Assembly (NCBI GenBank): GCA_028821195.1
Contig: JAPPHB010000066.1
Coordinates: 1 to 64,000 of the forward strand
Source of the DNA: Gammaproteobacteria bacterium
GTDB taxonomy: Bacteria; Gemmatimonadota; Gemmatimonadetes; Longimicrobiales; Gaopeijiaceae
DNA: 64,000 nt
Direction: 5' to 3'
Of the stretch, positions 41,914 to 58,432 are shown piece by piece. Each line of letters starts with the position of its first letter. Within the stretch, counting starts at the first letter, position 1. A program made the translations under genes and the position numbers. The notes under the pieces were generated by a model. It saw only the letters and a list, made by a program, of their open reading frames with translations. It searched no databases and was not told where the DNA came from.

Positions 41914-44007
41914 ATGGAAGCACACAGTGCCGGTGCCACGATAGGTGCGGGCGGGCGGGCCGTCGAGCCCTCCGTCGCGAACGCGCTCCCGCACTTCGCT
42001 CCACTTCTCATCTTCCCGCTCGTCGTCTGCGCCGCCATGTTCGGCGGCTGGTGGATCGCGGGTCCGTTCGCCTTCTTCATGCTCGCGAGCCCGTTCGACC
42101 GGCTCCTGGGCCTGGAGGAGCGGAACATGGATCCGGCGACGACCCGCGAGAGCCAGTTGTTCCTGTACAAGCTCGCCGCGTGGGTGTGGGCGGTTGTCTG
42201 GCCCGCGACCTTCGTCTTCGCGCTCTGGCAGATGCTGGTGGGCGGCCGACTGTCTCTCTGGGAAGCCGGCCTGATCGCCGGCGCACTGGTCATGGTGGCG
42301 CAGACCGTGTTCGTCGTGGGCCACGAGCTGGTTCATCGACGCGCGCCGTGGGAACGCCGGCTCGGCGAGTTCCTGCTGGCTTCCGTCTCCTACCCGCACT
42401 ATGCGACGGAGCACGTCTACATTCACCACCCCCGCGTATGCACGCCTCTGGACCCGGGGTCCGCGCCGAAGGGCGTGAGTTTCTGGGAATACCTGCCGCA
42501 GGAAGTGCTGAACAACATTGTGGGAGCCTGGCGGTTTGAACGGCGGCGACTGACGCGCCGTCAGTTGCCGGTGTGGCACCACACGAACGCGTTCTGGCGC
42601 TACGCAGTGCAGATCGCGTTCTGGTACGGGCTCATCTTCCGGTGGGGCGGCCCCTGGGCCCTGCTGCTCTACCTTGTCCTGTGCGGCAGCGTGGTCTTCT
42701 CGATGAAGATGAGCAACTACGTGCAGCACTACGGGCTGCGGCGCATCCGCATGCCCAACGGCAGGTTCGAGCCGGTCAAGCCGAGGCACGCCTGGAGTGC
42801 GGCCTACAAGTTCACCAACTGGCTGTACTACAACATGCAGCGCCACGCCGACCACCACACGTCGAACCGGCGATATCCGCTGTTGCAGCACTACGGCGAA
42901 GCCGCCTCTCCGCAGTTGCCGGGCAGCTACATGGAGATGAACGGCATGGCGCTCTTTCCCAAGCGGTGGTTCGAGACCATCGATCCTCTGGTCGACCGTC
43001 AGCGAGCCCGGTTCTATCCCGAGATCGACGACTGGAGCGCCTACGACAGCCGGGCGTTCGCGGCGCGCCCCGACGCGTTCGACGCCATCGCGGAGATTCA
43101 TGCCGCCGCCCCCGGCCTCGCCGAGTGGATAGACCGCTCACCGGCCCTCCTCGACACGCTGCGCGAGCGGGAATTCACGGACCTGGAACTGCCGGAGGGA
43201 TTCCTGTCGGACGCGGAATCGGAGGCGATCGCCCGGTCCGGGCTGGCGCGCCTCTACTGGACGTACGAACTCAGCCTCTCCGAAATGAGGGCCCAGCTCG
43301 ACGACATCCCCGTCCAGGACGCCGGTGAGGCGGTCGCGGCGGCGCGGGAGTGGTCGAACGGCAAGGTCTTCCAGATCGCCGTGCACACGATGCGCGGCAG
43401 CCTGTCCGTGAGCGAGGCGACGACGGCTCTGTCGCGCGTCGGCGAAGCCTGCATCGCCACCGTCCTGTCCGCGGTCGAGGAGGACTTCGCCGACCGCGGC
43501 GTGCCGCAAGCCAGCGGCGGCGTGGCGGTCGCGGTCCTGGGACCGCTGGCTAGCGGGGAGGCGCTGCCGGGCGCGGAACTCGATGTCCGGTTCGTGTACG
43601 ACGGCGGCCCGGCCAGGTACTACGAAGCACTGTGCCGACGCTTTCGCAAGGCGCTCCATGCGCTTTCGCGCAAGAACCTGCTGCTGGCGCCCGTCCCGCG
43701 CGACGGGATGGAGGACCTCCGTTCCCTCGCCGAGTTCGAGGAACAACTCCGCAATCCCGGTTCGGATCGTGAGCTGATGGCGCTCGCGCAGGCGCGTTGC
43801 GTGTTCGTGTCGGGCGATGACGAAATCGGGGAACGGTTCGCGCAGGCGGTGCAGGACGCTCCGGCACGGAGTGCGGCCCGCGAGATGCCGATGGCCGGGT
43901 TGCGCGAAGCCGCCGCGGGGGAAGTTATCGGTGATACCGCGTCCCGAGCCGCAACCGACATCGCCGCGCTTGCGGATGGCCCGGCTCGGGAGGTGAACGG
44001 GACTTGA
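41914..44007 (+). CDS. AlkB-type di-iron monooxygenase fused to a degenerate GlnE-like domain
   Basis: A 697-residue fusion. Residues about 25-370 match AlkB alkane hydroxylases: membrane helices plus the His boxes HELVH (137-141), EHVYIHH (166-172) followed by CTPLDPGSAPKGVSFW, NYVQHYG (268-274) and QRHADHH (309-315). Such enzymes insert oxygen into unactivated C-H bonds at a membrane di-iron site. Residues about 480-650 resemble the nucleotidyltransferase domain of glutamine synthetase adenylyltransferase GlnE: a helical lead-in, then VAVLGPLASGE and GAELDVRFVYDG where GlnE has GSDLD. The first catalytic Asp is Glu here, so activity is doubtful. The ATG at 41914 has GAGG upstream; a TTG at 41836 is an alternative. 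It lies 79 bases before the RiPP precursor on the same strand. I know of no standard family with this architecture. Confidence 0.8.
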   Translation: MEAHSAGATIGAGGRAVEPSVANALPHFAPLLIFPLVVCAAMFGGWWIAGPFAFFMLASPFDRLLGLEERNMDPATTRESQLFLYKLAAWVWAVVWPATFVFALWQMLVGGRLSLWEAGLIAGALVMVAQTVFVVGHELVHRRAPWERRLGEFLLASVSYPHYATEHVYIHHPRVCTPLDPGSAPKGVSFWEYLPQEVLNNIVGAWRFERRRLTRRQLPVWHHTNAFWRYAVQIAFWYGLIFRWGGPWALLLYLVLCGSVVFSMKMSNYVQHYGLRRIRMPNGRFEPVKPRHAWSAAYKFTNWLYYNMQRHADHHTSNRRYPLLQHYGEAASPQLPGSYMEMNGMALFPKRWFETIDPLVDRQRARFYPEIDDWSAYDSRAFAARPDAFDAIAEIHAAAPGLAEWIDRSPALLDTLREREFTDLELPEGFLSDAESEAIARSGLARLYWTYELSLSEMRAQLDDIPVQDAGEAVAAAREWSNGKVFQIAVHTMRGSLSVSEATTALSRVGEACIATVLSAVEEDFADRGVPQASGGVAVAVLGPLASGEALPGAELDVRFVYDGGPARYYEALCRRFRKALHALSRKNLLLAPVPRDGMEDLRSLAEFEEQLRNPGSDRELMALAQARCVFVSGDDEIGERFAQAVQDAPARSAAREMPMAGLREAAAGEVIGDTASRAATDIAALADGPAREVNGT

Positions 44008-44031
44008 CTTAAGACTTAATCCCTCTAATTT
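44004..44031 (+). promoter_or_regulatory. Candidate promoter of the RiPP precursor gene
   Basis: The 79 bases before the precursor are clearly AT-richer than the flanking genes. They contain TTGACT (44004-44009) and, 16 bases later, TAATTT (44026-44031). The -35 box is good and the -10 box is poor, so the exact site is uncertain, but the base composition supports separate transcription of the precursor. Confidence 0.35.
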
Positions 44032-44086
44032 GCGACAAAATAGGGTTGGTCATGTGGTTCATAGCCTCCAACGATGGAGAATTGCC

Positions 44087-44338
44087 ATGAGAAGCGGCGA
44101 TGAAATGCTGGCGCAAGTTGTTGAGAAGTCCACCGTGGACGCGGATTTCAGGGAACAGCTTCTCGCAGATCCAAAGGCTGCGATCAGCAGCGAATTGGGC
44201 ATTACGATTCCCGATTCGATGAACATCCGGGTCCATGAGAGCGACATGCAGACGGTGCACCTCGCGTTGCCGCCGGACTCGCACATCACCGAAGAGCAGA
44301 TGGAAGCCATCTCGGCCGGCCTCTGCTGCTGCTGGTAG
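44087..44338 (+). CDS. NHLP-leader RiPP precursor peptide with core LCCCW
   Basis: An 83-residue peptide precursor. GGAGA lies seven bases before the ATG. Residues 1-78 form a nitrile-hydratase-like leader (NHLP): VDADFREQLLADPKAAIS, ELGITIPDSMNIRVHE, HLALPPDSHITEEQMEAISAG. This matches the leader type recognised by NHLM exporters and TOMM cyclodehydratases. The C-terminal SAG resembles the double-glycine-type site cut by C39 peptidases, leaving only Leu-Cys-Cys-Cys-Trp. The Cys run is an obvious substrate for YcaO-dependent azoline formation, and the terminal Trp for the halogenase encoded in the same locus. The leader lacks the CxLCSC metal motif and length of true nitrile hydratase alpha subunits. 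Confidence 0.9.
   Translation: MRSGDEMLAQVVEKSTVDADFREQLLADPKAAISSELGITIPDSMNIRVHESDMQTVHLALPPDSHITEEQMEAISAGLCCCW
44321..44335 (+). other. Predicted mature core region of the precursor
   Basis: Codons CTC TGC TGC TGC TGG encode Leu-Cys-Cys-Cys-Trp directly before the stop. This is what remains after predicted cleavage behind Ala-Gly. The cut position is inferred; if it is one residue earlier the core is GLCCCW. Confidence 0.65.
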
Positions 44339-44397
44339 CCTCGCCGTAAGCCGGCGAGCCGGCGGTCAGGAACTCCTGTGCGCGTTGTCCGGATAAC

Positions 44398-46716
44398 TCA
44401 CGCGATCACAGGCGCGGGGTTCAGGTCGGCTTCGGCGAGGGAGGGCTCACGGTAGCCCATCTTGACGGGCACGTCGTACAGGCGCCCAGGCGCAAACCTT
44501 GCCCAGAAGTGGCGCATGCCCGGCACGATGACCCGCGCCACGGGCATGCCGATATCGGGCCGCGTCTGATCGAGCACAAGGAACTCCATGCCCCTGGCCT
44601 CGACGAGCGCGCGGCAACTCTCCACATCTTCGCGCGTGTCCGCCGATTCGGTCACCGGATAGTGCGAAGCCTTGCGGGACGGTTCGTCCGGCACCGGCGC
44701 CAACCAGGAACAGTCGGCGAGCCGGGCGGTGTTCCACCACCAGAGGGCCAGCGGATCATCGATCCTGGGCCGGCCGTCCCCCGCCCCGGGACGCGGCAGC
44801 CAGGTGAGGCACTGGTTCAATTCGCAAAGCGCGCGCAGGGCTGCTATGCGCGGGTCGGCGTGGGTCCCGGCACCGTAGATGATGTCCTCGGTCGGGGCGT
44901 CCGGCCGGCGGGAGAGCGCAACGAAGGTGGGAATGCCGATATCGGATGTGACGTCGAGCATCCATAGATCCCGCTCGCGGCGGCCGTAGTAGTCCGAGGC
45001 CGCTGCAATGTACTCGTCGTCAAAGCTGGATAGATCGACTGCCGGAACTCGCAATCGGTTATACCACCAGATGGCGAACGCATCGCGCTCAGCCAGTTCG
45101 TAGAAGCCCTGCAGGATGGCCTCTTCCAGGGTGTTGCCCGCGGCGCAGCCGTTCGAATCGGCGATCAGATCCGCGGGGCCGCGCTCCTCGGCCGACATGC
45201 TATAGAGGAGGGATGTCGGCAGGTAGCGGTGCCGCTGCTGCGTCAGCGACCACACCGGCGTCCAGTCGATTTCGGCGTCGGGCTCGAGACGCGGCGGGAC
45301 GATGTTGTAGGGGTGGCCCTTCGCGTTGATGCTCGCCGCATCGTCGAGCTGACTCTCGCTGAACAGCTGCACCTCGTTGGGGTGGATCGCCTCTTCCCTG
45401 CCGGCGAACTCGACGAATCGCTTGCGGACACGGATCTCGTCCCCATGACGGGCACCCGAATAGCGCTCGACCGCCTCGCAGAGGGCGCTGACCTTGGACT
45501 GCTGTCTTGTGCTGCCCTTGCCGGCGCTGTTGCTTCGCAGGCTGCGCCTGAGCGAACTCAGGCTCCGGTTTCTCATGCCGGGATTGCTCCCGGCCCAGTA
45601 GACGTGGAGCCAGGAGTCGGCCTCATCGGTGGTGCGCGACAGCCAGGTCACGACACCGCTGATCGGGCTCACTAGGTGCCGGTATTTCGCCAGGGTGGCT
45701 TCCGGCGCCACGGCACGTGCGCCGCCGCTGGTGCGATGAGCCTTGGGGCTCGCCCTCAGAGACACCGGCGCCGGTGGTCGATCCGGCCGGTGCAAGGCTT
45801 CGTCGCCGCAGGCCAGGCACTGTGGCCGACGCACGACCCGATGCTGCGAACTTGCAAATGTGGCCAAATCCATCGCGATTGCATGTTCGTGAATCGGGGC
45901 CGACTCACCCAGCACCAGCCATTTGACGATCTCCGCCGCGATCAGCCCGTACATCGCTTCCAGCACTTGGGGCTGAGCCGCGAACGGCCTGAAGGCGGCT
46001 TCCTCGCCGGCGACGTTGCGCAGGAAACCGTGGACTTCCCGGTGGCTGCGCAGGCGGTACGCGAGGCAATCCCGGCAGGGCCCCTTCCTGTCCGCCGGAA
46101 AGACGGGGCCGAAGAGCGGCTCCACGCCGTTCGGCCGCACCGGCGCCCACGGCGCTCCCGCCTCGAGCCGGCGCCGATTCACCTCCGCGAGATGTGATTC
46201 GAGATAGTCGCCGCAGACAACTACGGCGAGCGCCGGCTCGCCGGTCCCCACCCTGGCGCCGTTCGCCTCCAGATGCCGGACGAGCCCGCCGTCGTCACCT
46301 TCAACCGTGACGCGCGACCGCGCCAGCCGCTCCTCGACCCAGCGAGGCGACGCGCCAAGCGACGACCAGTAGGCTGCCTCGCACCGGTCCATGCCGTGGT
46401 CGGCGGAGACCAGATAGCCCCTGGCCGCGAACGCGGCAATGGCCGCCAGGACATCGGTCGCCGCATGGGCGCCCTCGAGGGCCGCGACAATCTCGTCCCA
46501 GGGGTGCCGACCGTCGAGCAGCGGCAGCAGATCACAGTGCAGCCTGCCGTGCAGCAGCGTATTGAACGACTCGGAGACGAGAAGCGCCTGCGCCTCGCCG
46601 ATATCGTGGAATCGGAGGTGCGGGGTGAGCGCGGGAAGCTTGACAATGCCCCGGTCCGCAAGAGTCGTTCGGATCAGGATCCCGTGCCGGGGAGGCGCGT
46701 CCTTCTCCGCTGCCAT
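44398..46716 (-). CDS. Fused leader-binding/E1-like and YcaO cyclodehydratase (TOMM synthetase)
   Basis: A 772-residue fusion that would convert Cys residues of the precursor to thiazolines using ATP. Residues about 1-320 form the TOMM leader-binding/E1-ThiF-like partner, with two structural-zinc Cys pairs, CRDC (214-217) and CLAC (300-303). Residues about 340-772 are the YcaO ATPase: the nucleotide-site Glu motif ALCEAVERYSG (412-421), SNGCAAGNTLEEAI (521-534) and FYELAERD (538-545). The C-terminus ends NPAPVIA, a shortened form of the proline-rich tail (PxPxP) that is important in azoline-forming YcaOs. It is the last gene of the minus-strand operon, 5 bases after the cyclase-like gene, and converges with the precursor. 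Confidence 0.92.
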   Translation of the reverse strand: MAAEKDAPPRHGILIRTTLADRGIVKLPALTPHLRFHDIGEAQALLVSESFNTLLHGRLHCDLLPLLDGRHPWDEIVAALEGAHAATDVLAAIAAFAARGYLVSADHGMDRCEAAYWSSLGASPRWVEERLARSRVTVEGDDGGLVRHLEANGARVGTGEPALAVVVCGDYLESHLAEVNRRRLEAGAPWAPVRPNGVEPLFGPVFPADRKGPCRDCLAYRLRSHREVHGFLRNVAGEEAAFRPFAAQPQVLEAMYGLIAAEIVKWLVLGESAPIHEHAIAMDLATFASSQHRVVRRPQCLACGDEALHRPDRPPAPVSLRASPKAHRTSGGARAVAPEATLAKYRHLVSPISGVVTWLSRTTDEADSWLHVYWAGSNPGMRNRSLSSLRRSLRSNSAGKGSTRQQSKVSALCEAVERYSGARHGDEIRVRKRFVEFAGREEAIHPNEVQLFSESQLDDAASINAKGHPYNIVPPRLEPDAEIDWTPVWSLTQQRHRYLPTSLLYSMSAEERGPADLIADSNGCAAGNTLEEAILQGFYELAERDAFAIWWYNRLRVPAVDLSSFDDEYIAAASDYYGRRERDLWMLDVTSDIGIPTFVALSRRPDAPTEDIIYGAGTHADPRIAALRALCELNQCLTWLPRPGAGDGRPRIDDPLALWWWNTARLADCSWLAPVPDEPSRKASHYPVTESADTREDVESCRALVEARGMEFLVLDQTRPDIGMPVARVIVPGMRHFWARFAPGRLYDVPVKMGYREPSLAEADLNPAPVIA

Positions 46717-46721
46717 CCAGC

Positions 46722-48008
46722 TCAGGCCCGCAGCACTTCGACGAGACGCTCCAGGGCCTCAATGCAGAACGCGGAGGTCACGGCCTCGGAGCCATGCCCG
46801 ATCTGTCCTGCCACGCCCCACTTCAACGACTGGTCGCCGAACGCGAGCAACTCCGGCCAGCTTCCGTCCCCGCGCTGCGAGCTCAGCAGTCTCTCCGCCT
46901 CGCGCTTCGCGTCGATCCGCTCGAGGCTTCCGATGTTGTGGAGCGCCGACACCGCCTGAGCGGAATGAAGGACATTGCCGAACTCTCCCTTCTCATCACG
47001 CAGGCCGAGGATACGATCCGCGAGCATCGGGCGCAGGGGATCGAGGGCGGGTTTCGCACGAATCAGCGCGCGTGTGATCGCATGGTAGATCGTGACCGTG
47101 TCGGGATACCACTTCGACGAGCCCTCGAGGTTGCCCTCGGTCACCAGGGCTTCCAGCCATCGCCGGGCGCCCCTGGTTCCCGGATGGTTGCCCAGGCAGG
47201 CGAGGACATTCGCATTGACGACCGGGTCGGCCTCGATACGAAAGGGCGACACGACGTTGGGTTCGTCTTCCGCCAGCACCCAGGTCAGGAAGCGGCCTTC
47301 CTCGTCGCGATTTGCCAGCATGCCCGGAACGTTCCTCCCCAGCCAGATCCAGGGGTGGGTCCCGATGACGAGCGAACAGAGCGCGGTACTGTCGAGATCC
47401 GGGGGCAGGTGACGATAGTACCGCCAGAATCCGGGGTATTCGATGGTGTCGATGAGATACGCCTTCGTAGCGGTGCATATCGCCCTGGCCCGCGGCTCAT
47501 CGGAGCTGTCAAGGGCAAGCGCGCAGAGAGCCGACACGAAAGGAGGCCTTTCGAAATGCCTTGGGATCTCCGGGTCGGCCACATTGAACCGGATGCAGTG
47601 CCAGGCCCCATTCTCGTCGATCGTGGATTCCAGGAACCCAAGCCCGCGGCGGATCCCTTCCCTCGCTGCCCTGGCCAGCGCCCCGGAGGTGGCGCTGCTT
47701 CGGACCCCCTTTTCTTTCGCTGCAAAGGGCCGAAGGGGCGGCGCGGGGTCGTGGAGCGTCCTTCGAAGAAACTCGAGCGATGCCGCACCGGTCCTCGCCG
47801 CCTCTCGTTCGGCCTCGCTGAGCTTGCTCCGCGGCGGGAGCACGACATGCGTCGCGGTATACGACTCTTCGTGCACGCGAATCTCATGGTCCTCGGCCAG
47901 CGTCACGCCGAATTCCGTCTCGATTGTCTCCCTGGGGTTCCGGAGAAGACGTTCACGAAAGTCACTGTCTTCAGCGGCTCTCGATACGAGAATATCGTCT
48001 GCGTCCAT
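46722..48008 (-). CDS. NHLP leader domain fused to a terpene-cyclase-like alpha/alpha barrel
   Basis: A 428-residue protein. Residues 1-75 are a second NHLP leader, closely parallel to the precursor (DSDFRERLLRNPRETIETEFG, then HEIRVHEESYTATHVVLPP, then KLSEAERE), but without a cleavage motif and core. A linker (76-108) leads to an alpha/alpha barrel of the prenyltransferase/squalene-hopene-cyclase type with repeats such as SSQRGDGSWPE (376-386) and PPDLDSTA (202-209). The latter resembles the catalytic DxDDTA of class II terpene cyclases with one Asp replaced by Ser. The enzyme may be recruited through its leader-like domain to the same leader-binding partner or exporter. Substrate unknown. 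It follows the exporter gene without a gap. Confidence 0.8.
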   Translation of the reverse strand: MDADDILVSRAAEDSDFRERLLRNPRETIETEFGVTLAEDHEIRVHEESYTATHVVLPPRSKLSEAEREAARTGAASLEFLRRTLHDPAPPLRPFAAKEKGVRSSATSGALARAAREGIRRGLGFLESTIDENGAWHCIRFNVADPEIPRHFERPPFVSALCALALDSSDEPRARAICTATKAYLIDTIEYPGFWRYYRHLPPDLDSTALCSLVIGTHPWIWLGRNVPGMLANRDEEGRFLTWVLAEDEPNVVSPFRIEADPVVNANVLACLGNHPGTRGARRWLEALVTEGNLEGSSKWYPDTVTIYHAITRALIRAKPALDPLRPMLADRILGLRDEKGEFGNVLHSAQAVSALHNIGSLERIDAKREAERLLSSQRGDGSWPELLAFGDQSLKWGVAGQIGHGSEAVTSAFCIEALERLVEVLRA

Positions 48009-50951
48009 TCAGGCGACCTGCCTCCTTACCAGATCTCTGAACACCCCGTCGGCCTCCATCAGTTCGTTGAAGGAGCCGCTCTGTACGACTCTTCCGGCCT
48101 GCAAAACATAGATGCGATCGGCCTGTTCCAGCGTGGACAGGCGGTGGGCGATGACGACCCGGGTGGAGGTCAGAGCGGTGAGGTTTCGCATGACCCTGGC
48201 CTGGCTCTCGTTATCCAGCCAGTTGGTCGCCTCGTCCAGGAGCATGATTCGCGGGCTGCCGATCACCGACCGGGCGATTGAAACGCGCTGACTCTCGCCG
48301 CCCGAAAGGACAGACCCGCTCGTGCCGACCATGGTCATCATGTCCATGGGCATGCCCTTGATCTCCTCTTCGACGTCGGCGACTCGCGTCGCCGTCCATA
48401 TCTCGTCACTCGCCACCTCATCGTGGTGACCGATCAGATTGTCCCAGAGATCCGAGGGATGGAGTCCAACGGACTGCGGCACCACGCCGATTCTGCGGCG
48501 CACCTGTTTCAGGTTCAGGTTCCTCAGATCACGTCCGTCGTAGCACACTGCTCCCGCGGTGGGCCGGTCGAATCCAAGCGCCAGCCGGAAGAGGGTGCTC
48601 TTGCCAGCGCCGGACTCGCCCGCAATCGCGACGAACTCCCCGGGGCGGACGTGAATCGTGACATCGTCGAGGATCAACGGGCCGTCGGGATCGTACCGGT
48701 AGGAAATGTGGTCGAAGACAATGTCGCCCCCCAGATCCTCGACCGGCGCTCCTTCGACTTCGGCCTCGGGGACCGCAGCGAGAAGCGGGCGCATCTGGTC
48801 GAACGCCGGGAGTATGGCGGCAACCGCGCCAAAGGACTCGCCGAGCCGGGCGACGGCGGATTGAAACGCGGCGAAGACGAGGTAGACGACGAGAAAATCG
48901 CCGACCGGGAGGTTCCCGTCGCCCATGGCTACGACCGCGAACAGCAGGATCCCGGCGGCAAGAAGGGGGAGCGCCGCGCCAAACGCCCGCGAATGTCCCT
49001 CGAGCGCGCTCAGCTCGAGCTCCGTACGCTTCTGCTCCCGGTAGTCCTGCGCCCAGATGGCGAAAGCCGACGCTTCCGCGTTTTCCACACGCAGCTTGCC
49101 TATGCTGCCCACGATCTGAAATAGCCGGCCGGAGACGCGCCGCGCCGCGCGGATCATCCGCCCATGGAGCGGAATCTGGCGCAGCCCGAGGACGACGGTG
49201 ACCAGGAGCGAAGCCAGGCTGAACGCGAGGGCAACGGTCCCGAGCGTCGCATCGTAGAGGAAGATGACGCCAAGCACCGGAAGCAGAAAAAGGATCGAAA
49301 GCAGGCCGTGGGCCGCGACTCCCTGCAACCCGTCGCGAAGATTCTGGAACGTCATCCCCGACACGGCGAGATCGCCAGCCCGACGACCGTGCAGAATGCT
49401 TGGCGGAAGACGCATGAGACGGTCCCAGAAGGACGCTTCGACCCGTGAAACCGAGCGACCCTCGATCCGCATCATCGCCGTGCTCTGAAGCAGATGCAGC
49501 AGTGCGCCGAGCAGGCCGAACCCCGTCACCGCCACCGCCACCGCATAGAGCTGGCCGGCGGTTCCGCCCGCCGCAGTCTGGTTCGCAACGAACCCGAGCG
49601 CGAGCGCCGGCACGAGCTTGATCAGGCCGCCCGGAAGCCCGGCAAGCACCAGCCGCGCAAGATCCGCCCCCGATCCACGCAGCGCGATCCTCAGCAGGTC
49701 CGCCGGCTTCACGTTCCCCAACGGCAGTGGCCGATAGAACATCCAGGCCTCGTCCGCCAGCGCGGCGGCACGATCCGCCGTCATCCTGACGCTGCGCTTG
49801 CTGACCGGATCGAATTCCCGGTAGCGCCCCAACCATCCCGGCAGAAGCGCCACGGGCCGGTCGTCTTCGGCGCGGAATGCCAGCATCGCGTTGCTGTCGC
49901 CGCGCCACCAGGCGTCCTCGGCCCTGAACCGCACGCGTCGGGCGCGCACGCCCGACGCATCGAGAACGTCTGTAAGGCCGACTGGATCGCCGGAGGGATC
50001 CGAGCGCACCGGGATCCTGAAATCGATTCCCTCACGGCGTCCGATCGCCCGCAGGGCGTCCGCCAGCGACGTGTCCTCGACACTCACGTCCCGGTCGATC
50101 GGCAGATCATGGATATTGAAGAGGCGCTGCCGCGCGGCTCTCTCGACCGTGCGGCGGCTCGTGGTCCGCACGCGCTCGAGATTCGCGTCATCGACCACGG
50201 CCAGTCGGCGGTTCAGGCGCTCCAGGGCGAAGGCAACCGCGTGAAACCATGCAAGCGCCGAGAGCAGGATGCCCTGCTTTGCCAATGTCTCGGTCGAGGA
50301 GCCCGAGAGTGTCGTCTCGTCGGACAGGATGAGCCAGCTTGTCCGCGTCAGCGGTATCACCGCTTCGCCTGGGCCGCGCGCCTCGACGATGTCCGCCGGG
50401 TCGACCAGGTCCATGAAGAGGCCGGTGCCGCGCGGCGGTTCGGACACCCATACGACGCCGCGCTGTACGGACAGCGTACAGGGAGCCGGCGTCCGCGTCA
50501 GACCGGGTTTGGCCAGCGCAGTCGGACGCGGAAGGCGGCTCGCAAAACGCGAGAGTGTGTCCGTAATCGCGGTCAGCCAGGTATCGGTCTGTTCCGCCAG
50601 CTCCGCCGGATCGGCGTCGGACAGCACGGAGGCGGGCAGGCGTTTCAGAATGGTGCCCGGCGATCCCTTGGCGATCAGGCTGAGCGTGGTGTCATCCTCA
50701 TCGCGTGGCCCGTCCGGCGCGACCCCCGGCAGCAGCGAGCCCGATCCGCGGCGCAGCAGATGCTGCGGCGCCGCCTGCTCCACCCCGTCCCGGAATTCGA
50801 CCAGGAACAGATTGACGGCGCCCTGATCGATGAACCAGACGGTGTCCGGGTCGTCGAGCTTCACCGGCAGATTGCCGGCGCAGGGCACGGACTCGCCGGA
50901 GAGGGCGGCGAGTTCCGCGATGGATGTGTACGCCGGGCTGGTGTCCCGCAT
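48009..50951 (-). CDS. NHLM-type bacteriocin export ABC transporter, permease/ATPase subunit
   Basis: A 980-residue ABC half-transporter of the NHLM class dedicated to NHLP-leader peptides. The first ~430 residues are a long cytoplasmic extension typical of this subunit, without a C39 protease. An ABC membrane domain (helices from about residue 435 to 700) and an ATPase follow: Walker [10 protein letters not shown] (near 780), signature LSGGESQR (near 884), Walker [13 protein letters not shown] and H-loop VIAHRLS. It probably pairs with the C39-bearing subunit encoded just upstream, whose stop overlaps this ATG by one base. Confidence 0.93.
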
Positions 50952-53161
50952 CAGCCGGACTTGACCAGCTTGAAGTAGGTGCCGTCCCGATCCGCGATCA
51001 GCTCGTCGTGCGTCCCGCGCTGCACTTCGACACCCCCGTCGAGCACGATGATCTCGTCGCAGTCCCGCACGGTGCTCAGCCGGTGCGCCACGATCAGGCA
51101 CGTTACACCCCGACGTCGCAAGGCGTCGTCGACGTATTCCTCCGTCGCGGCATCGAGGGCGCTGGTCGCCTCATCCAGAATGAGCAGCGTCGGATTGCCC
51201 AGCAGCCCCCGGGCGATCTCCAGCCGCTGGCGCTGGCCGCCGCTGAAATTCACGCCGCCGTCCTCGACCCGGGTTGAATACCCGGCCGGCCGAAGCAGTA
51301 TTTCGTCGTGGATCCGGGCATCGCGTGTCGCCGCGAAGATGGCCTCATCGGGAACGGCGGGGTTCCACAGGGTGATGTTGTCGCGCACGGACCCGGAAAA
51401 GAGCACGACCTCCTGATCCACCATGGAGATGGATCGCCGCAGCACCTCCTCGGGAATCTCGTCCCGGGGGTGGCCATCGAACAGGATTTCGCCGGACCAG
51501 GGCTGATAGAGACCGGCAATCAGACGCGCGAGGGTCGACTTGCCGGAACCGCTGGGACCGACAACGGCAACCCGCTGCCCCGGCCTGATCAGGAGGTTGA
51601 AGTCCTTGATCAGAGCGGGCCGACTCCTGTTGAAGCCGAAGCTGACGTTCCCCAGCTCGAGCCGGCCGGTGAGCTGGAGTCGGCCCTTGAAGGTGGGAAG
51701 CGACTCCGACTCAGGACTCCGGCGGCGGAAGGCGGGGTCTTCCGCCGCTTTGGAGATATCTTCGAGTCGCTGCAGATCGGTTTCGAGCGCCTGGCGTTGT
51801 CCGGCGAACTCCAGGAAGCGCCCAACCGGTGCCAGAAACATCTCGGCCAGGATATAGAACCCGACCAGCGTGCCCAGGGTCATCTCTCCGGCCATGACCA
51901 GGCTTCCCCCGATGCCCAGGACCGTCGCGGCGCGAAGTGCGGCGATCAGGCCCGGGAGCGCGGTGTTGACGGAGCCCAGTGCGGAATAGCGCCGGCGTGC
52001 ATGCAGTTCGCGCGCCTGATGGCCGCCCCACCGCGAAAAGAAACGGTCGTCCGATCCTGTCATGCGCAGGTTGTCGGCATGATTCAGCATCTGCATGCCG
52101 ACGCCGAGCAAAAGCCCCTGTTCGCGCCTCATCGCCTGGCTGCGAACCACCCGGAGCCCGTTGAGAACGTGTGCCAGCACGCCGTGCAGAAAGGCCAGAA
52201 ACAGCACAACCAGCGTGAGCCGGACATCGTAGGCCAACATGGCAATGAGCAGCACGGCGCTCATTCCCATGTCGACAATGAGCACCAGAAACTGTTCCGT
52301 CAGGTTTCTCGCGACTCTGTCGATGGACGAGACTCGATCCGTCAGATCGCCTGCGAGACGGTGTTCGAAGAACTCCACCGGCAACCGCAGCAGCCGCGAC
52401 AGGCCTCGACTGTAGCCCATCACCGAAACCCGGATCGCAAGCCGTTTCAGGAACCGGTGCTTGAGCACGGACAGGATGTATATGAGGACACCGCCGCCGA
52501 GCAGGGCCGTCACGAGTCCGCCCCAGGGCCCCCGGTTCTCCAGAACATCGTCCACGAAGACGCCCAGGGATGCGGGGACCACAAGGGCCAGCAGCGTCAA
52601 CATGAGGCCGCAGGCGATTACCCAGGCAAGCGCGCTCCGCGATCCGGTGAGCAGCGTGCCCAGTTGCGTGTACAATCCGGGCGGTTCGCCGCCGGGTTCG
52701 AAACCGGAGCCCCGCTTGAATCGCAGCGCAATTCCGCTGTAGCCCTTGCCGAACTCTTCCGCCGAGAGCCTGCGCCGCCCCGTGGACGGATCATTGAGAT
52801 AGAAGTGGCGACTGTCGAACCCCTCGAGGACGACAAAATGGCTGAATTGCCAGAACACGATCAGAGGCAACTGCAACCTCTTCAGTTGACCGGCACGTAC
52901 GCTGAGTCCACTGCATTCGAGACCGTAGTGCCTGGAGGCGCGCGCGATGCTCGCCGCACTGCTTCCGTCCCGACTCACCTCGCATCTTTCCCGCAATTCC
53001 ACCAGCGAAACCCAGCGTCCGAAGTAGGCGAGAACGCTGCCGAGGCAGGCGGCGCCACATTCCGACGCGTGCATCTGCAACACAATCGGCGTGGTTACGC
53101 GCTGTTCCTCGAAGCTCGCTGCGGCCTTGTCGTCACCCCCCCTGAAGGCGATCAGCGCCAT
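50951..53161 (-). CDS. NHLM-type ABC exporter with C39 leader peptidase
   Basis: A 736-residue peptidase-containing ABC transporter that removes the leader and exports the product. The C39 peptidase has QMHASECGAACL with catalytic Cys35, His108 (QFSHFVVLEGF) and Asp124 (LNDP). Membrane helices occupy about 170-460, and the ATPase shows Walker A GPSGSGKST (near 537), FSGGQRQRLE (near 644), Walker B LLILDEATSALD and VAHRLS. The specificity fits the Ala-Gly site of the precursor. The ATG at 53161 follows the adaptor stop by one base. It is the natural maturation and export enzyme of this locus. Confidence 0.95.
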   Translation of the reverse strand: MALIAFRGGDDKAAASFEEQRVTTPIVLQMHASECGAACLGSVLAYFGRWVSLVELRERCEVSRDGSSAASIARASRHYGLECSGLSVRAGQLKRLQLPLIVFWQFSHFVVLEGFDSRHFYLNDPSTGRRRLSAEEFGKGYSGIALRFKRGSGFEPGGEPPGLYTQLGTLLTGSRSALAWVIACGLMLTLLALVVPASLGVFVDDVLENRGPWGGLVTALLGGGVLIYILSVLKHRFLKRLAIRVSVMGYSRGLSRLLRLPVEFFEHRLAGDLTDRVSSIDRVARNLTEQFLVLIVDMGMSAVLLIAMLAYDVRLTLVVLFLAFLHGVLAHVLNGLRVVRSQAMRREQGLLLGVGMQMLNHADNLRMTGSDDRFFSRWGGHQARELHARRRYSALGSVNTALPGLIAALRAATVLGIGGSLVMAGEMTLGTLVGFYILAEMFLAPVGRFLEFAGQRQALETDLQRLEDISKAAEDPAFRRRSPESESLPTFKGRLQLTGRLELGNVSFGFNRSRPALIKDFNLLIRPGQRVAVVGPSGSGKSTLARLIAGLYQPWSGEILFDGHPRDEIPEEVLRRSISMVDQEVVLFSGSVRDNITLWNPAVPDEAIFAATRDARIHDEILLRPAGYSTRVEDGGVNFSGGQRQRLEIARGLLGNPTLLILDEATSALDAATEEYVDDALRRRGVTCLIVAHRLSTVRDCDEIIVLDGGVEVQRGTHDELIADRDGTYFKLVKSG

Positions 53162-53162
53162 A

Positions 53163-53714
53163 TCATGACCGCCCCATCCGCAGGAATGCGACCGGAGATT
53201 GCGTGCCAATCTCGATGACGATCCGACATTCTCTGCCCACAATGGAAGCAAGGTCGAGGCTCTCGTCCAGCGCGATATCGAGGCGGTGCACCGATACCGG
53301 CACCGCAGACTCGAAGGCCGCGGGAGCCTCCAACAGGCGAACGGCGGAAATTGCCGCGACTTCCACGCTTATTGTGTCCGCTTCTCCATCCGCCATGCCC
53401 AGCTCCATCACCGCCGGCATTCCTGCCCTGATCTGCGGCACGATGTCGCTGTCGATCCAGACGAGCGCCTGCACGGACCGGCCCGCTTCGGACAGGCTTG
53501 TGCCCGGGTCGACCAGCACACCGTCCACCGCGAGGCTGCGGGTTACGCTGCCAAGAAAGAGCCACGTCACGAAGATGAACAACGACAGCGCGACGGCGAC
53601 GACGAGCAGGCGCTCCCGCGGTGTGGAAACCGTCAGCAGCCGGTCGAGTTGTTCCCGTTCCTGCTTTGCTTCCGCAACGGTATCGTGAAACGAACCAAAC
53701 GGATTATTGAACAC
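53163..53714 (-). CDS. Short HlyD-like NHLM secretion adaptor
   Basis: A 183-residue membrane-anchored protein. The first 33 residues are polar and cytoplasmic (LTVSTPRERL precedes the helix), one membrane helix follows (LLVVAVALSLFIFVTWLFL), and then the start of a periplasmic adaptor (VTRSLAVDGVLVDPG) with a beta-rich domain. The N-terminal portion matches NHLM-type secretion proteins, but the usual coiled-coil hairpin of full HlyD adaptors (commonly about 400 residues) is missing. It may be a reduced adaptor, or a partner for a separate periplasmic protein. It is directly upstream of the two exporter genes on the same strand. Confidence 0.75.
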   Translation of the reverse strand: MFNNPFGSFHDTVAEAKQEREQLDRLLTVSTPRERLLVVAVALSLFIFVTWLFLGSVTRSLAVDGVLVDPGTSLSEAGRSVQALVWIDSDIVPQIRAGMPAVMELGMADGEADTISVEVAAISAVRLLEAPAAFESAVPVSVHRLDIALDESLDLASIVGRECRIVIEIGTQSPVAFLRMGRS

Positions 53715-53798
53715 GCCTCTGTATCGCCTCCTTACCTAGTATCGAACAAGGATAGCACGTCAGGGTGCGCGGTGCAGGCTTCGCCGGCCGCCGGCCGG

Positions 53799-55109
53799 CT
53801 ACGTCGGCATGGAGTCGTGCTTCCGCCCCAATGGCGCACCCAGACCGTGGGCGATTTGCGCGAAGCTGCTCACGGGAAGGAACGCGCACTGCCGCTCCCA
53901 GTCCGCCGGATCGGGGGTCAACGCGGTGACCAGTTCGAGCATCTCGTCGAACTTGCGCAAGGCGGAACAGTCCACGGCCAGCGGATCGGCGGCCTCCCGG
54001 TAGTTCGGCCACACGCGGTCCCGGGCGTTGCGCCAGAACGCACTGTCGTACTTCGAACCACAGCAATAGTGCCAACCGACGAACAAGCCGGCTGCGAGCG
54101 CATCGGTGACGAGAAAGCGGTTGATGACGGGCGCGTCGCTCTGCACATACTCCGCCGGCCGGTGGAACCGCATGCGCAGAACCAGCGCGACCTGCAGTTG
54201 CGCCAACCTGATGGCGGTCGCTTCGAGCGGCTCCATGAAGGCGGCGGCATTCCCGACGCGGACCACGGCACCATCATAGATCCGGCGGCGGACGAAATTG
54301 GGAAACGGAATGACGGCGCGCTTCTCGAAATCCGACACGCCGTCCTCCGCAAGGAACTCGTCGAAGTCCGCCTCGACTGCATCGAGATCGGACACGTCCT
54401 TATTGAAGACATAGCCGTAGGATGTGTGCACGGTCAGCGGAATGACGAACACCCATCCGTGCGGACGCGCCACCGCACGGGTATACGTGAGTTCGCGGAC
54501 CGGCGCGTTCGGCGGCGCCTTGACGACCGGGGGGCCGCGGCGAATGGCGGCGCAGTTCGTGGGGATGAAGGAAATGTCGATGTGCTCCTGCGGATCCAGT
54601 TGCCGCGGATAGCCGCGGGCATCGAAGACCAGATCGTAGCGCTCGGCCTCACGGCCCTCGAACTGCACCTGCGCGCCGCCGTCGACTTTCGTGATCGCGG
54701 TCACCCTCGCGTCGATGTGGCGGGCTCGCGTACTCGCGCGCAACAGATCCGCCATCAGGTCGGCCGACAGGTGGTAGGCATAGGCCACCTGTTGTGGCGT
54801 GAAGTAGTGAACAAAGTCCTGTCGGCGTCGACCCCATCCCTCGAAGCGGCTGCCGAACTTGCGGGTGCCGTTCAGGCGTTGCTGAACCGTCTCGTGGGGC
54901 AACTGCGATAGTTGCTGCAGTTCGCGGACCAGACTGGGCCAACTTCCTTCGCCCACGCCGATGATGGGAATGCGAGAATCGTAGATGTGGTGCAGCTCAT
55001 GATCGCGCTCCGGGTGCAACCGCGATACGCTGGCGGCGGCCAGCGCGCCCGCGGTGCCGGCTCCGACGACCGCAATCTTTCCGCACGTCCCGCTGCCGAG
55101 TTCCTTCAC
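53799..55109 (-). CDS. Flavin-dependent tryptophan halogenase family protein
   Basis: A 436-residue FAD enzyme. The GTG at 55109 is chosen because GGGGAGG lies eight bases upstream and the FAD motif KIAVVGAGTAGALAAASV then begins at residue 11; an ATG at 55175 is an alternative. GVGEGSWPS follows. The catalytic Lys of tryptophan halogenases aligns with Lys84 (GTRKFGSRFEGW) and the catalytic Glu with Glu296 (EPLEATAI). The WxWxIP motif is altered to GWVFVIP. The family uses reduced flavin, O2 and halide to halogenate indoles. Because the precursor core ends in Trp, peptide halogenation is the obvious proposal. The required flavin reductase is not encoded here. Confidence 0.88.
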   Translation of the reverse strand: MKELGSGTCGKIAVVGAGTAGALAAASVSRLHPERDHELHHIYDSRIPIIGVGEGSWPSLVRELQQLSQLPHETVQQRLNGTRKFGSRFEGWGRRRQDFVHYFTPQQVAYAYHLSADLMADLLRASTRARHIDARVTAITKVDGGAQVQFEGREAERYDLVFDARGYPRQLDPQEHIDISFIPTNCAAIRRGPPVVKAPPNAPVRELTYTRAVARPHGWVFVIPLTVHTSYGYVFNKDVSDLDAVEADFDEFLAEDGVSDFEKRAVIPFPNFVRRRIYDGAVVRVGNAAAFMEPLEATAIRLAQLQVALVLRMRFHRPAEYVQSDAPVINRFLVTDALAAGLFVGWHYCCGSKYDSAFWRNARDRVWPNYREAADPLAVDCSALRKFDEMLELVTALTPDPADWERQCAFLPVSSFAQIAHGLGAPLGRKHDSMPT

Positions 55110-55223
55110 CGTGGCGACCTCCCCGGGCGCACCGCCCCCTGAACGCGACAGCGCGCGGCAAACGCGACGCGCCATGTCCCGGCCCCACCCGCGCCATCCG
55201 CAAGGCCGCGCGCGATGCGGATA

Positions 55224-56339
55224 TCAGGGCGTGATGACACCCGACAGCACCATGTAGACGTAGGCCTTGATCTGTTCAACCCGGTCTCCGGCGATGACCA
55301 GCTTGATGTGGTGGATTCCCCGCAACAGTACGAACCGCCCGGTTCTGCCAAACAGAATGGTCGGTTGCGAGACCCAGCCGACCAGCGCCGCAACTTTCTC
55401 CGACACTACACGGTCCTCGTGGCGCAGGGCCTCCAGCACCGGCTGCCAATCCGTCAGGCCATCGATCCAGACCCGGGAAGCAGCCGTATATCTCTGCTTG
55501 ACTATGGGCGTCAGGCCGAGGGTCGGACCGACGCCATCCGCCTGCGCGTCGACGTTCACCCCGGTCCTGACGATCTGCGTGCGCTCGCCGAAGCGTGCAA
55601 GCACCGTCTCCACGGTCGCGATGTTCCCGGGCCAGGCGATCTTCTCGAGGAAGGAACGGACCTCCCGCTGCCCGGCAAAGCCCATGATCGCCAGGCGGAT
55701 CTGGCGTGCGCGCGACGGAAACAGGCCGAACGAGTCGAGGCGGGTGTCTTCAGGTTGCGCCAGGTAGACCCGCTCGGCGTTGCTCCGCTCCGCCGCGCTC
55801 GGTTCCAGGTCGTGGCAGTCCACGAGTTCGTCCACCACGACGCCGACGTCGTGCCGCTGCCCGGCGCCGCCGACGATCATGCGTTCGTTGGGCCGCAGGA
55901 ACATCCCGGGCAGCGGATCGCCCTCGCCTCCCGAGCCGATGTCGTATTCCAGCATCAACTTGCGGCCGACTATCGCGCGCAGGGGCGAGTCCGCGGCCTC
56001 CATGCTGCGAAACAGGCGGCTGACCGCCGCCGCCGTGCGATCCGATGGGTCGCGCCGCGCCTTCTCCTCGAAGAACGCGCCCGACCGGTTGCCGCTCGCC
56101 AGCGAGACGCCGAAATCCGCCCGCGGCCGACTGTCGTGCAGCGGCAGCTCGAAACCGAACGGCTGGGCACCCATGGTTATGGGCAGGGTCCCCGCCCTTG
56201 CCAGCAGGTGTTTCCACTCCTGCTCTCCGATCAGAACGGGAGAGATCCTGTCTCGCAGGTGCCCGAGCAGGTCATGCATGGTGGCACCCTCTCCCGCCAG
56301 TCGCTCCTGGGTGACTGCTATCGCTTCGTGGATGTCCAT
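55224..56339 (-). CDS. Conserved-looking protein of unknown function in the RiPP operon
   Basis: A 371-residue soluble protein that I do not recognise. It starts MDIHEAIAV with GAGG eight bases upstream. The N-terminal third carries PFGFELPLHDSRPRADFG, the middle is rich in charged loops (PGMFLRPNERMIVGG), and a segment with SRARQIRLAIMGFAGQ is followed by a possible helical domain. No signal peptide, membrane helix, Cys-based metal site, nitroreductase-like FMN motif or nucleotide loop is evident. Its place at the head of the halogenase-exporter genes suggests a biosynthetic role. It could be a modifying enzyme or a condensation/regulatory protein. Confidence 0.7.
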   Translation of the reverse strand: MDIHEAIAVTQERLAGEGATMHDLLGHLRDRISPVLIGEQEWKHLLARAGTLPITMGAQPFGFELPLHDSRPRADFGVSLASGNRSGAFFEEKARRDPSDRTAAAVSRLFRSMEAADSPLRAIVGRKLMLEYDIGSGGEGDPLPGMFLRPNERMIVGGAGQRHDVGVVVDELVDCHDLEPSAAERSNAERVYLAQPEDTRLDSFGLFPSRARQIRLAIMGFAGQREVRSFLEKIAWPGNIATVETVLARFGERTQIVRTGVNVDAQADGVGPTLGLTPIVKQRYTAASRVWIDGLTDWQPVLEALRHEDRVVSEKVAALVGWVSQPTILFGRTGRFVLLRGIHHIKLVIAGDRVEQIKAYVYMVLSGVITP

Positions 56340-56404: not shown

Positions 56405-57109
56405 TCAGGATCGGCGCTCGTCGTCATGCACCGTGCCGTCGACCATGCGGATCAGACGCCGGGACCGCTCCATGACGCGGCTGTCGTGGGTGGCGAAGAC
56501 GAAGGTCACTCCGAGGTCGCGATTCAGCTCGCCCATGACATCGAGGAGCGCGTCGCTGGTGACCGAGTCCAGGTTCGCCGTCGGCTCGTCCGCGAGCACC
56601 AGGGCCGGACGGCTGGCCACCGCACGCACGACGGCGACCCGCTGCTGCTGGCCGCCGGACAGCTTGCCCGGGCGCCGGTCTTCGAGCCCTTCCATTCCCG
56701 TCCGCGCAAAGAGTCCGCGGACCCGCGCCTGACGCTCCTCTGCCGGCACGCCCTGAAGGAGCATCGGGAATTCCGCATTCTCCAACGCCGTGAGCACGGG
56801 GAGCAGGTTATAGGCCTGGAAGACAAAGCCGACCTCCTCGAGCCGGAGCCGCGCCAGCTCCCGGTTCGACATGCGGCTCACCTCGCGCCCGGCGACCCAG
56901 ACCCGTCCCTGCGTGGGGCGGGTCAGGCCACCGATCAGATTCAGCAGCGTCGTCTTGCCGGAGCCCGACGGCCCCGCGAGCGCGGTGAATTCGCCACGCT
57001 CGATGGTCAGGCTGACGTCGCGGACCGCCTGCACGGATTCGGCTTCCTGCTGGAAGACCTTCCAGACGCCGTCGGTCCGGGCGGCTGCCGTGTCGCGCAC
57101 TGCCATCAC
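56405..57109 (-). CDS. MacB/LolD-type ABC ATPase
   Basis: A 234-residue ABC ATPase of the MacB/LolD group. It has Walker A GPSGSGKTT, the Q-loop FVFQAYNLLPVLT, signature LSGGQQQR, Walker B ALVLADEPTANLD and H-loop FATHDSRVM. These ATPases power FtsX-fold permeases that extract lipoproteins or export peptides mechanically. Two such permeases are encoded immediately upstream on the same strand, with a LolA-like periplasmic protein. Location in front of the RiPP genes makes a role in product export, self-protection or envelope stress plausible. Confidence 0.95.
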   Translation of the reverse strand: MMAVRDTAAARTDGVWKVFQQEAESVQAVRDVSLTIERGEFTALAGPSGSGKTTLLNLIGGLTRPTQGRVWVAGREVSRMSNRELARLRLEEVGFVFQAYNLLPVLTALENAEFPMLLQGVPAEERQARVRGLFARTGMEGLEDRRPGKLSGGQQQRVAVVRAVASRPALVLADEPTANLDSVTSDALLDVMGELNRDLGVTFVFATHDSRVMERSRRLIRMVDGTVHDDERRS

Positions 57110-57152: not shown

Positions 57153-58430
57153 CTACCGATCGAACTTCATCGCCTCGGTAACGTCGACCCGGGCAGCGCG
57201 CAGCGCCGGATAGACCGAGGCGAGAATTCCAATGCCGAGAATGAACGCGACAATCTGGACGATGCGTCGCACCCCGAAGATCGGGACGATGACAGGGTCG
57301 ACGGCGACACCCGAGAATGTCAACTCGTCAATGTCCTGCATGAAGACCGACGTGTCGAGCCCGTCGCCGAAGAAGTACCAGGTGGCCAGGAGTCCCAGGC
57401 CGACGCCGACCAGCCCGCTGACAGCGGACATCGTGAGGCCTTCGATGAGAACGACGGTGCCCGTCTGACCCGGCGTCAGCCCCTGCGCCTGAAGTATGCC
57501 GAACTCGCGCTGGCGATGCATCACCGACATGAGCACCGTGTTGACGATCCCGAACGCGATGATGACGAACAGGAACCCCTGAATCACATAATTCCCGAAC
57601 TCGTCGATCGCGATCCCCGCCGCCAGGACGGGGTTCGCCTCGCGCCACCCCACGACGCGTGCCTCGCCGCGTTCCACCGGCTCCGCCAGCGCCAGCGCCA
57701 GGCGGTCGGAGACCCATCGGGTCCTGCCGCTGCCCTGCAGGACGACCGCGACGTTGGTCACGTCGCTCCCGGAACCGAGCCACTCGCCGGCGGTCGCGAG
57801 CGTGATGTGGATCGTCGCCTGGTCGATGGCGGCGACGCGGCTGCGGAAGATCCCCACCACGTGGAGCAGCTGCCCCGTAATCTCGCCGTCGGCACCCTGC
57901 GCCTGCACGACGAAGCGCGATCCGATCTCGAGTCCAAGGCTGCGGGCCAGATCGGTGCCGACAAAGGCCGCCAGCCGATCATCGGGCTCGAGGTAGCGCC
58001 CTTCGATCACGCCATCGTCGATCATGCCGAAGCCGGCTTCGGCGACGGGGTCGACCCCCACGATCTGCGCCGGGCGCGCACCGGCCGCCGAACTCGCCAG
58101 CCCGTTGATGCCGAGCCTGGCGGACATGCTCTCAACGTGCGGTGCGATCTCCGGAGAGGTCAGCGCCTGCTCAGCGGCGCGGCTGACGTCCGCCGTCAGC
58201 CGGTCGTCGATCTGACGGTGCAGCCGGTACTCGGGCCGCTCGATGGTCAGGTGTCCGCTCCCCATGCGCACACCGGAATCGACCCACTGCTCGTGGCTGC
58301 CGTCGTCGATCGTCATCGACCAGACCAGGAATGCGCCGCCCACGATCATCGCCGAGGCGGTCAGCACCGTGCGACGGAGCTGACGGCGCAGGTTCCTCAG
58401 GGCGAGCCGGACCAGGACGCGCAGGAGCAC
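57153..58430 (-). CDS. FtsX/MacB-fold ABC permease
   Basis: A 425-residue permease. The GTG at 58430 lies right after the stop of the preceding permease gene. An N-terminal helix (TVLTASAMIVGGAFLVWSM), a large periplasmic domain (about residues 45-265), and three C-terminal helices (GFLFVIIAFGIVNTVLMSV, GLVGVGLGLLATWYF, IVAFILGIGILASVYPALRA) give the four-helix MacB/FtsX topology, finishing with the typical PALRAARVDVTEAMK tail. It forms the membrane unit with the ATPase encoded 44 bases downstream. Confidence 0.9.
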   Translation of the reverse strand: MLLRVLVRLALRNLRRQLRRTVLTASAMIVGGAFLVWSMTIDDGSHEQWVDSGVRMGSGHLTIERPEYRLHRQIDDRLTADVSRAAEQALTSPEIAPHVESMSARLGINGLASSAAGARPAQIVGVDPVAEAGFGMIDDGVIEGRYLEPDDRLAAFVGTDLARSLGLEIGSRFVVQAQGADGEITGQLLHVVGIFRSRVAAIDQATIHITLATAGEWLGSGSDVTNVAVVLQGSGRTRWVSDRLALALAEPVERGEARVVGWREANPVLAAGIAIDEFGNYVIQGFLFVIIAFGIVNTVLMSVMHRQREFGILQAQGLTPGQTGTVVLIEGLTMSAVSGLVGVGLGLLATWYFFGDGLDTSVFMQDIDELTFSGVAVDPVIVPIFGVRRIVQIVAFILGIGILASVYPALRAARVDVTEAMKFDR

Positions 58431-58432
58431 GG

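Follow-up and report, generated by a model that had tools for sequence, protein, structure and literature searches.

What molecule is finally made from a precursor peptide whose predicted core counts five residues is the question raised by the locus described here, which lies in a 64,000-nucleotide stretch of a bacterial contig (JAPPHB010000066.1, assembly GCA_028821195.1; hereafter the window) and covers positions 41914-56339, from the ATG of an AlkB/GlnE-like fusion gene to the ATG of a prenyltransferase-like gene. The initial annotation had described the precursor of a ribosomally synthesized and post-translationally modified peptide (RiPP), 83 residues long, with an NHLP leader and the end SAG-LCCCW. 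The plus-strand gene at 44087-44338 agrees with this description: its 83-residue product ends in EAISAGLCCCW, scores 63.4 bits against TIGR03793 (cut-off 50.9) and consists of a leader (residues 1-78) and, after SAG, the predicted core LCCCW (79-83). Profile matches also confirmed the neighbours that had been named, i.e. a YcaO/E1-like fusion, a pair of NHLM exporter subunits, a short adaptor and a tryptophan halogenase homologue. As set out below, the locus is very probably a srp-type proteusin cluster, and, with considerably less certainty, its product is predicted to be extended by a terpene.

The SrpE core is given as LCCCW in the available text of PMC10286304 and PMC10858898, where SrpC turns the three Cys into thiazolines and SrpI introduces bromine, with no chlorination, onto the C-terminal Trp at indole-6 in a leader-dependent manner; the SrpI residues published there are K84, Y102, P105-Q106-Q107-V108-S109 and Y110. 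The SrpC-type protein of the window is a fusion of a YcaO cyclodehydratase with an E1-like leader-binding part (44398-46716, minus strand, C-terminus NPAPVIA), which exceeds the cut-offs of TIGR03604 (281 versus 219.25 bits) and TIGR03882 (141.8 versus 36.9). For the SrpI-type flavin-dependent Trp halogenase (minus strand; PF04820 match, 164 bits), the longest open reading frame (ORF) spans 53799-55175 and places the lysine at residue 106, while counting from the likely GTG start at codon 23 (gene 53799-55109) makes it K84 and brings YFTPQQVAY to 102-110. Among the 36 halogenase relatives covering the SrpI positions the Lys is kept in 36/36, and the loop reads YFTPQQVSY in 26/36. In the leader, NLTEEQL at residues 66-72 of SrpE aligns with HITEEQM at 66-72 of the window precursor. 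Because the LCCCW core, the SrpI-type K84 with the 102-110 loop and the leader alignment match SrpE and SrpI, we assign the locus with high confidence to the srp-type proteusin clusters, whose product here would carry three thiazolines and a C-terminal Trp brominated at indole-6. Thiazoline formation, bromination and leader dependence were established for the homologues and are applied to this genome by likeness.

A few details argue against this assignment. The L(X)4L leader motif (67/72) is represented by Ile67/Met72, which are hydrophobic residues, not Leu. In the halogenase, GWVFVIP takes the place of the WxWxIP typical of this enzyme class, and the NHLM subunits score slightly below the curated cut-offs (833.1 versus 853.3 for TIGR03796, 670.6 versus 709.4 for TIGR03797). 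As these two profiles are their best matches, both ABC subunits are nevertheless clearly NHLM-like by sequence.

The srp identity settles several points of the initial annotation. Its reading of the locus as the source of a product of undescribed form was rejected, since the srp papers describe the LCCCW core (PMC10286304; PMC10858898, as far as their text was available), and the LCCCW bromopeptide cluster itself is already known. Halogenation of Trp was correctly anticipated and is published for the same core with a homologous enzyme, the halogen being bromine at indole-6. The tris-thiazoline form agrees with what is published for SrpC, and the tris-thiazole form, given as the other option, is the less likely one, as the scan of the window cluster genes revealed no azoline oxidase. 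By itself, the bromopeptide of this published cluster offers no new chemistry lead; the product mass is what matters.

What distinguishes the window from the srp literature are a prenyltransferase-like gene and an NHLP-cyclase gene, which are unmentioned in the srp texts searched. In these texts (PMC10286304, PMC10858898 and srp-citing texts including PMC9426513, with the founding 2021 paper outside the scope of the search), prenylation or terpenes appear only in a reference title in PMC10286304. The protein encoded at 55224-56339 (minus strand) belongs to no Pfam family, and a search of the PDB by sequence gave no match, so that only the fold is informative: a Foldseek search with its model returned an ABBA barrel, and we regard it as a predicted ABBA prenyltransferase. 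The protein encoded at 46722-48008 (minus strand) combines an N-terminal domain (about residues 1-70) with a C-terminal part (about 107-426) whose model adopts the alpha/alpha toroid of the class II terpene-cyclase fold. Its motif D204-L-D206-S-T aligns with DLDTT of 9mhs in a weak match (E 0.034), and DLDS is kept in 27/27 cyclases. The N-terminal domain scores 48.2 bits against TIGR03793, below the cut-off of 50.9, and 29.8 against NHase_alpha, above the cut-off of 27.2; it was also the sole other match when the window genome was searched with the precursor at E 1e-6 or better. We therefore describe this domain as NHLP-like and the whole as a predicted class II terpene cyclase.

Relatives of the locus were sought in 84,980 species genomes; of the 210 found, the top 80 by similarity to an LCCCW precursor were used. 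Presence counts are lower bounds, as 41/80 loci do not have the full 10-kb flank, and conserved groups made by antisense ORFs were disregarded as spurious. In the 39 named loci with both flanks, the cyclase was found in 39/39, ABC subunit 2 in 38, YcaO in 36, the prenyltransferase-like gene in 31, the AlkB/GlnE-like gene in 30, ABC subunit 1 in 23, the halogenase in 22 and the adaptor in 17. The prenyltransferase-like gene adjoins YcaO on the same strand in 44/48 loci in which both were seen. 

In the class of the window's genome, 44/295 genomes matched at E 1e-6: 22 with LCCCW (one of them split over two contigs, its core end not being seen as letters), 8 with LCCCG and 14 with only the cyclase leader domain or another NHLP protein. 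Whole-genome searches in this class revealed the halogenase together with the NHLP-cyclase in 18/22 LCCCW genomes and in 0/8 LCCCG genomes (Fisher p 8e-5 for halogenase versus core type, a value that ignores kinship). Outside the class, both genes were found in 13/13 LCCCW genomes, 8 of them picked from the 80 loci for title breadth, and neither in the LCCCGI genome. Combined, halogenase and cyclase are each present in 31/35 LCCCW and 0/9 LCCCG(I) genomes. Gene content was read over 18-20 kb in eight Trp-less loci, seven with LCCCG and one with LCCCGI. YcaO (truncated in one), the two ABC subunits and the prenyltransferase-like gene occur in 8/8, an adaptor match at E 1e-10 and the AlkB/GlnE-like gene each in 6/8, and halogenase or cyclase in 0/8. 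Near YcaO, 7/8 carry a FAD_binding_4 oxidase (L045:14132-15451, with counterparts in L046-L050 and L146), the eighth being cut at that side; this oxidase occurs in 0/80 named LCCCW loci. As both genes are found with LCCCW and neither with LCCCG(I), Trp, brominase and cyclase appear to be gained or lost together, the Trp-less type carrying the oxidase instead. Trp-less precursors next to the same enzymes had been named as grounds for doubting the proposed product, which the data do not provide: the LCCCG form accompanies halogenase loss.

Three further observations on these genes weigh against the srp assignment. Both genes are missing from 4/22 LCCCW genomes of the class, the same four for either gene; as the precursor lies at most 500 bases from a contig end in three of these and on a 5.4-kb contig in the fourth, assembly loss is a possible explanation. 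In 5 of the other 18 LCCCW genomes the cyclase sits on another contig than the precursor, and G241 has a cyclase but neither halogenase nor precursor. The halogenase lies in two frames in G298, and only a partial one was found in G013. A second srp copy in G181 (G181:C160; L036:1771-2579) has a halogenase that lacks its middle part.

All 80 named relatives carry LCCCW at the C-terminus, a figure that rests on a ranking favouring LCCCW and says nothing on the frequency of other cores. Together with the window, the 81 precursor genes are all distinct in DNA; 35/83 residues never change, including SAGLCCCW (81/81), 48/83 positions vary, and codons vary at all 31 invariant residues that have degenerate codons. 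Since the genes are distinct, SAGLCCCW is constant and the codons of invariant residues vary, the core is, judged from these sequences, under selection. A RiPP family with long variable cores, which the initial annotation had set as the counter-case to its own proposal, was rejected: the observed cores are short and hardly vary.

The record titles of the 80 loci, which serve as a guide only, include Gemmatimonadota, Proteobacteria (Alpha, Gamma, Delta), Acidobacteria and Nitrospinae; the remaining ones are Opitutales, which we take to be Verrucomicrobia, and Rhodothermales, which we take to be of the Bacteroidota type, presumably giving six phyla in all. The founding srp paper of 2021 (Nguyen et al., JACS) is said to have found srp clusters spread widely over bacterial groups. 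Because precursor identity to the window is high (77-99%) although the titles span several phyla, transfer of the locus between lineages is suggested. One record is named Spongia_Bin9, and most other loci may likewise come from sponges. Among 396 genomes of the phylum of an Acidobacteria-titled record (G297), 3 matched at E 1e-15 or better, with LCCCW in G508 and G297; G297 and also G323 had NHLP precursors of a non-srp type. In the order of a Rhodospirillaceae-titled genome (G295), 6/11 genomes matched, one with LCCCGI. The LCCCGI precursor (L146:9679-9924) belongs to the order of the alphaproteobacterium-titled genome, and its own genome carries neither halogenase nor NHLP-cyclase.

Taken together, we propose a model in which LCCCW, presented by the NHLP leader, is acted on by two enzymes: the YcaO fusion converts the three Cys into thiazolines, and the flavin halogenase places bromine on indole-6 of the C-terminal Trp. 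The ABBA-fold enzyme would attach a polyprenyl chain, which the class II cyclase, tethered through its NHLP-like domain, would protonate and cyclise on the Trp side. The C39-type NHLM exporter may cut after SAG and export the product, and the bromo-Trp tris-thiazoline meroterpenoid could be handed to a Lol-like lipid-handling system; the order of steps is likewise our proposal. On balance, we favour, by a small measure, a RiPP meroterpenoid as the srp product in bacteria of several phyla: LCCCW with three thiazolines, with bromine at position 6 of its Trp, and with a prenyl chain that the cyclase with the NHLP-like domain has cyclised. This preference concerns the terpene extension, which is absent from the srp texts searched, and is separate from our much firmer view of the srp identity. 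That the AlkB/GlnE-like fusion oxidises the prenyl chain is a tentative suggestion.

If the terpene extension is real, the native molecule would be heavier by a terpene, and searches at the unprenylated mass would have missed it. We computed MH+ values (79Br) of 651.088 for the bare peptide and of 787.213, 855.275 and 923.338 with C10, C15 and C20, respectively, which makes the proposal directly testable in sponge extracts. The genes named in the initial annotation were right, and the prenyltransferase-like, NHLP-cyclase fusion and AlkB/GlnE-like genes went unnamed; because the prenyltransferase-like and terpene-cyclase-like genes were missed, the product mass it predicted is probably incomplete.

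The chief alternative is that only a plain brominated tris-thiazoline pentapeptide is made, the ABBA-like and cyclase-like proteins acting on another target or serving as non-catalytic scaffolds. Such a product would agree with PMC10286304 and PMC10858898, in whose available text srp chemistry consists of bromination and cyclodehydration only, and the NHLP-like domain of the cyclase-like protein would suit a scaffold. The terpene extension is further weakened by modest Foldseek TM-scores of the ABBA-fold protein, by the absence of an ABBA model from the Pfam matches of 28 prenyltransferase-like members and by a SQHop_cyclase_C match of the window cyclase at only E 0.038. The prenyltransferase-like gene is also kept in Trp-less LCCCG clusters, so that its acceptor need not be Trp; there it must be something other than Trp, or the specificity has changed, and identity is 36-39% in the LCCCG loci and 49% in the LCCCGI locus. 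In contrast, a role as bystanders or scaffolds is opposed by the presence of a cyclase in every named locus with both flanks, by its invariant DLDS, by the frequent place of the prenyltransferase-like gene next to YcaO on the same strand, and by the side-by-side prenyltransferase-cyclase pairs of other proteusin loci. We consider the plain peptide a possible outcome, though a less probable one than the meroterpenoid.

Two further readings concern the peptide itself, and both appear improbable. Oxidation to a tris-thiazole is conceivable in the sister type, where 7/8 LCCCG(I) loci carry the FAD_binding_4 oxidase, but for the window locus it is opposed by the absence of this oxidase from the 80 LCCCW loci and of any oxidase among the scanned window genes, and by the thiazoline product published for SrpC (PMC10286304; PMC10858898, in the text available). 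The constancy of SAGLCCCW across phyla, in a precursor that varies at more than half of its positions, could also reflect a metal-binding or cofactor-like bromo-peptide, yet no metal transporter or receptor was seen among the scanned cluster genes, and thiazolines would mask the thiols.

The bromo-peptide meroterpenoid, which we prefer, would also fit the surroundings of the core genes. A minus-strand run with short gaps leads from 60499 to 44398, in the order LolA-like protein, permeases, ATPase, prenyltransferase-like protein, halogenase, adaptor, ABC subunits, cyclase and YcaO; the plus strand holds the precursor and the AlkB/GlnE-like gene. Within this run, the short HlyD-like adaptor (53163-53714) gives a weak TIGR03794 match (19.2 bits), and sequence reading suggests ATG starts for NHLM ABC subunit 1 with its C39 peptidase at 53161 (50951-53161) and for subunit 2 at 50951 (48009-50951, within ORF 48009-51101). 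Next to the prenyltransferase-like gene, and in the same orientation, lie an ABC ATPase (56405-57109), assigned to the Lol/Mac type from its neighbours, an FtsX-type permease (57153-58916) and a MacB/FtsX-type permease (58433-59689), both ORFs as listed, and a LolA-like outer-membrane lipoprotein-sorting protein (59696-60499). Of the 80 named loci, 22 hold a protein related to the L118 LolA-like protein and 15 one related to the L072 MMPL protein; such neighbours would fit a lipid-like product. At the other end, the plus-strand fusion of a FA_desaturase/AlkB-like with a GlnE-like nucleotidyltransferase domain (41914-44007) is part of this gene row in many other loci as well, and because it stands next to the cyclase gene, in the same orientation, in 25/37 named loci with both seen, it probably belongs to the cluster.

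Prenyltransferase-like genes were also seen in other proteusin loci. In L149 (12601-14872) and L150 (9036-10975) the gene directly neighbours a cyclase that is a separate protein and lacks the NHLP-like domain, with precursors ending in CDGSTDYAWDC and FAPGGDSW, respectively; L149 also carries a PF04820 halogenase (595 bits). L151 (1411-9817) combines a precursor ending in GYY with two prenyltransferase-like genes and no cyclase and is possibly a Tyr-prenylating relative, and L152, whose core contains Trp, has a single prenyltransferase-like gene and no cyclase in the stretch. In this small set (L149-L152), cyclases occur only with Trp cores.

Compared with known systems, the window shares with the srp clusters of sponge microbiomes the LCCCW core, the NHLP leader, YcaO and, in the halogenase, K84 and the loop at 102-110. 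The two folds are also combined in NctPC, described in the accessible part of PMC13290415 as an ABBA prenyltransferase fused to a MstE-like cyclase that puts geranylgeranyl onto Trp before cyclisation; both folds and the proposed Trp target are alike, whereas the window has two separate proteins, a cyclase with an NHLP-like domain and a core with thiazolines and bromine. The mpp cluster of Moorena, as far as presented in PMC11791876 and PMC12715784, unites the brominase MppI, the alpha-beta-beta-alpha prenyltransferase MppC, which transfers geranyl onto Trp and requires the leader, and the terpene synthase MppD. It resembles the window in having an SrpI-like brominase alongside a prenyltransferase and a terpene synthase, and differs as a lanthipeptide system with a Nif11-type leader and no row of three thiazolines. 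In the PalX/PalQ pair (PMC10853753, same limitation), an NHLP precursor is likewise prenylated on its C-terminal Trp, yet PalQ belongs to the isoprenoid-synthase superfamily and not to the ABBA fold. Finally, MstE and drimenol synthase share the toroid fold with the window cyclase, whose DxD(S/T)T-like motif is placed as in drimenol synthase. Fusion of a terpene cyclase to a domain of the RiPP leader type would be an unusual means of bringing a terpene enzyme to a peptide. No NHLP-like domain is named for these matched solved chains, a portion of the model that the fold search barely covered.

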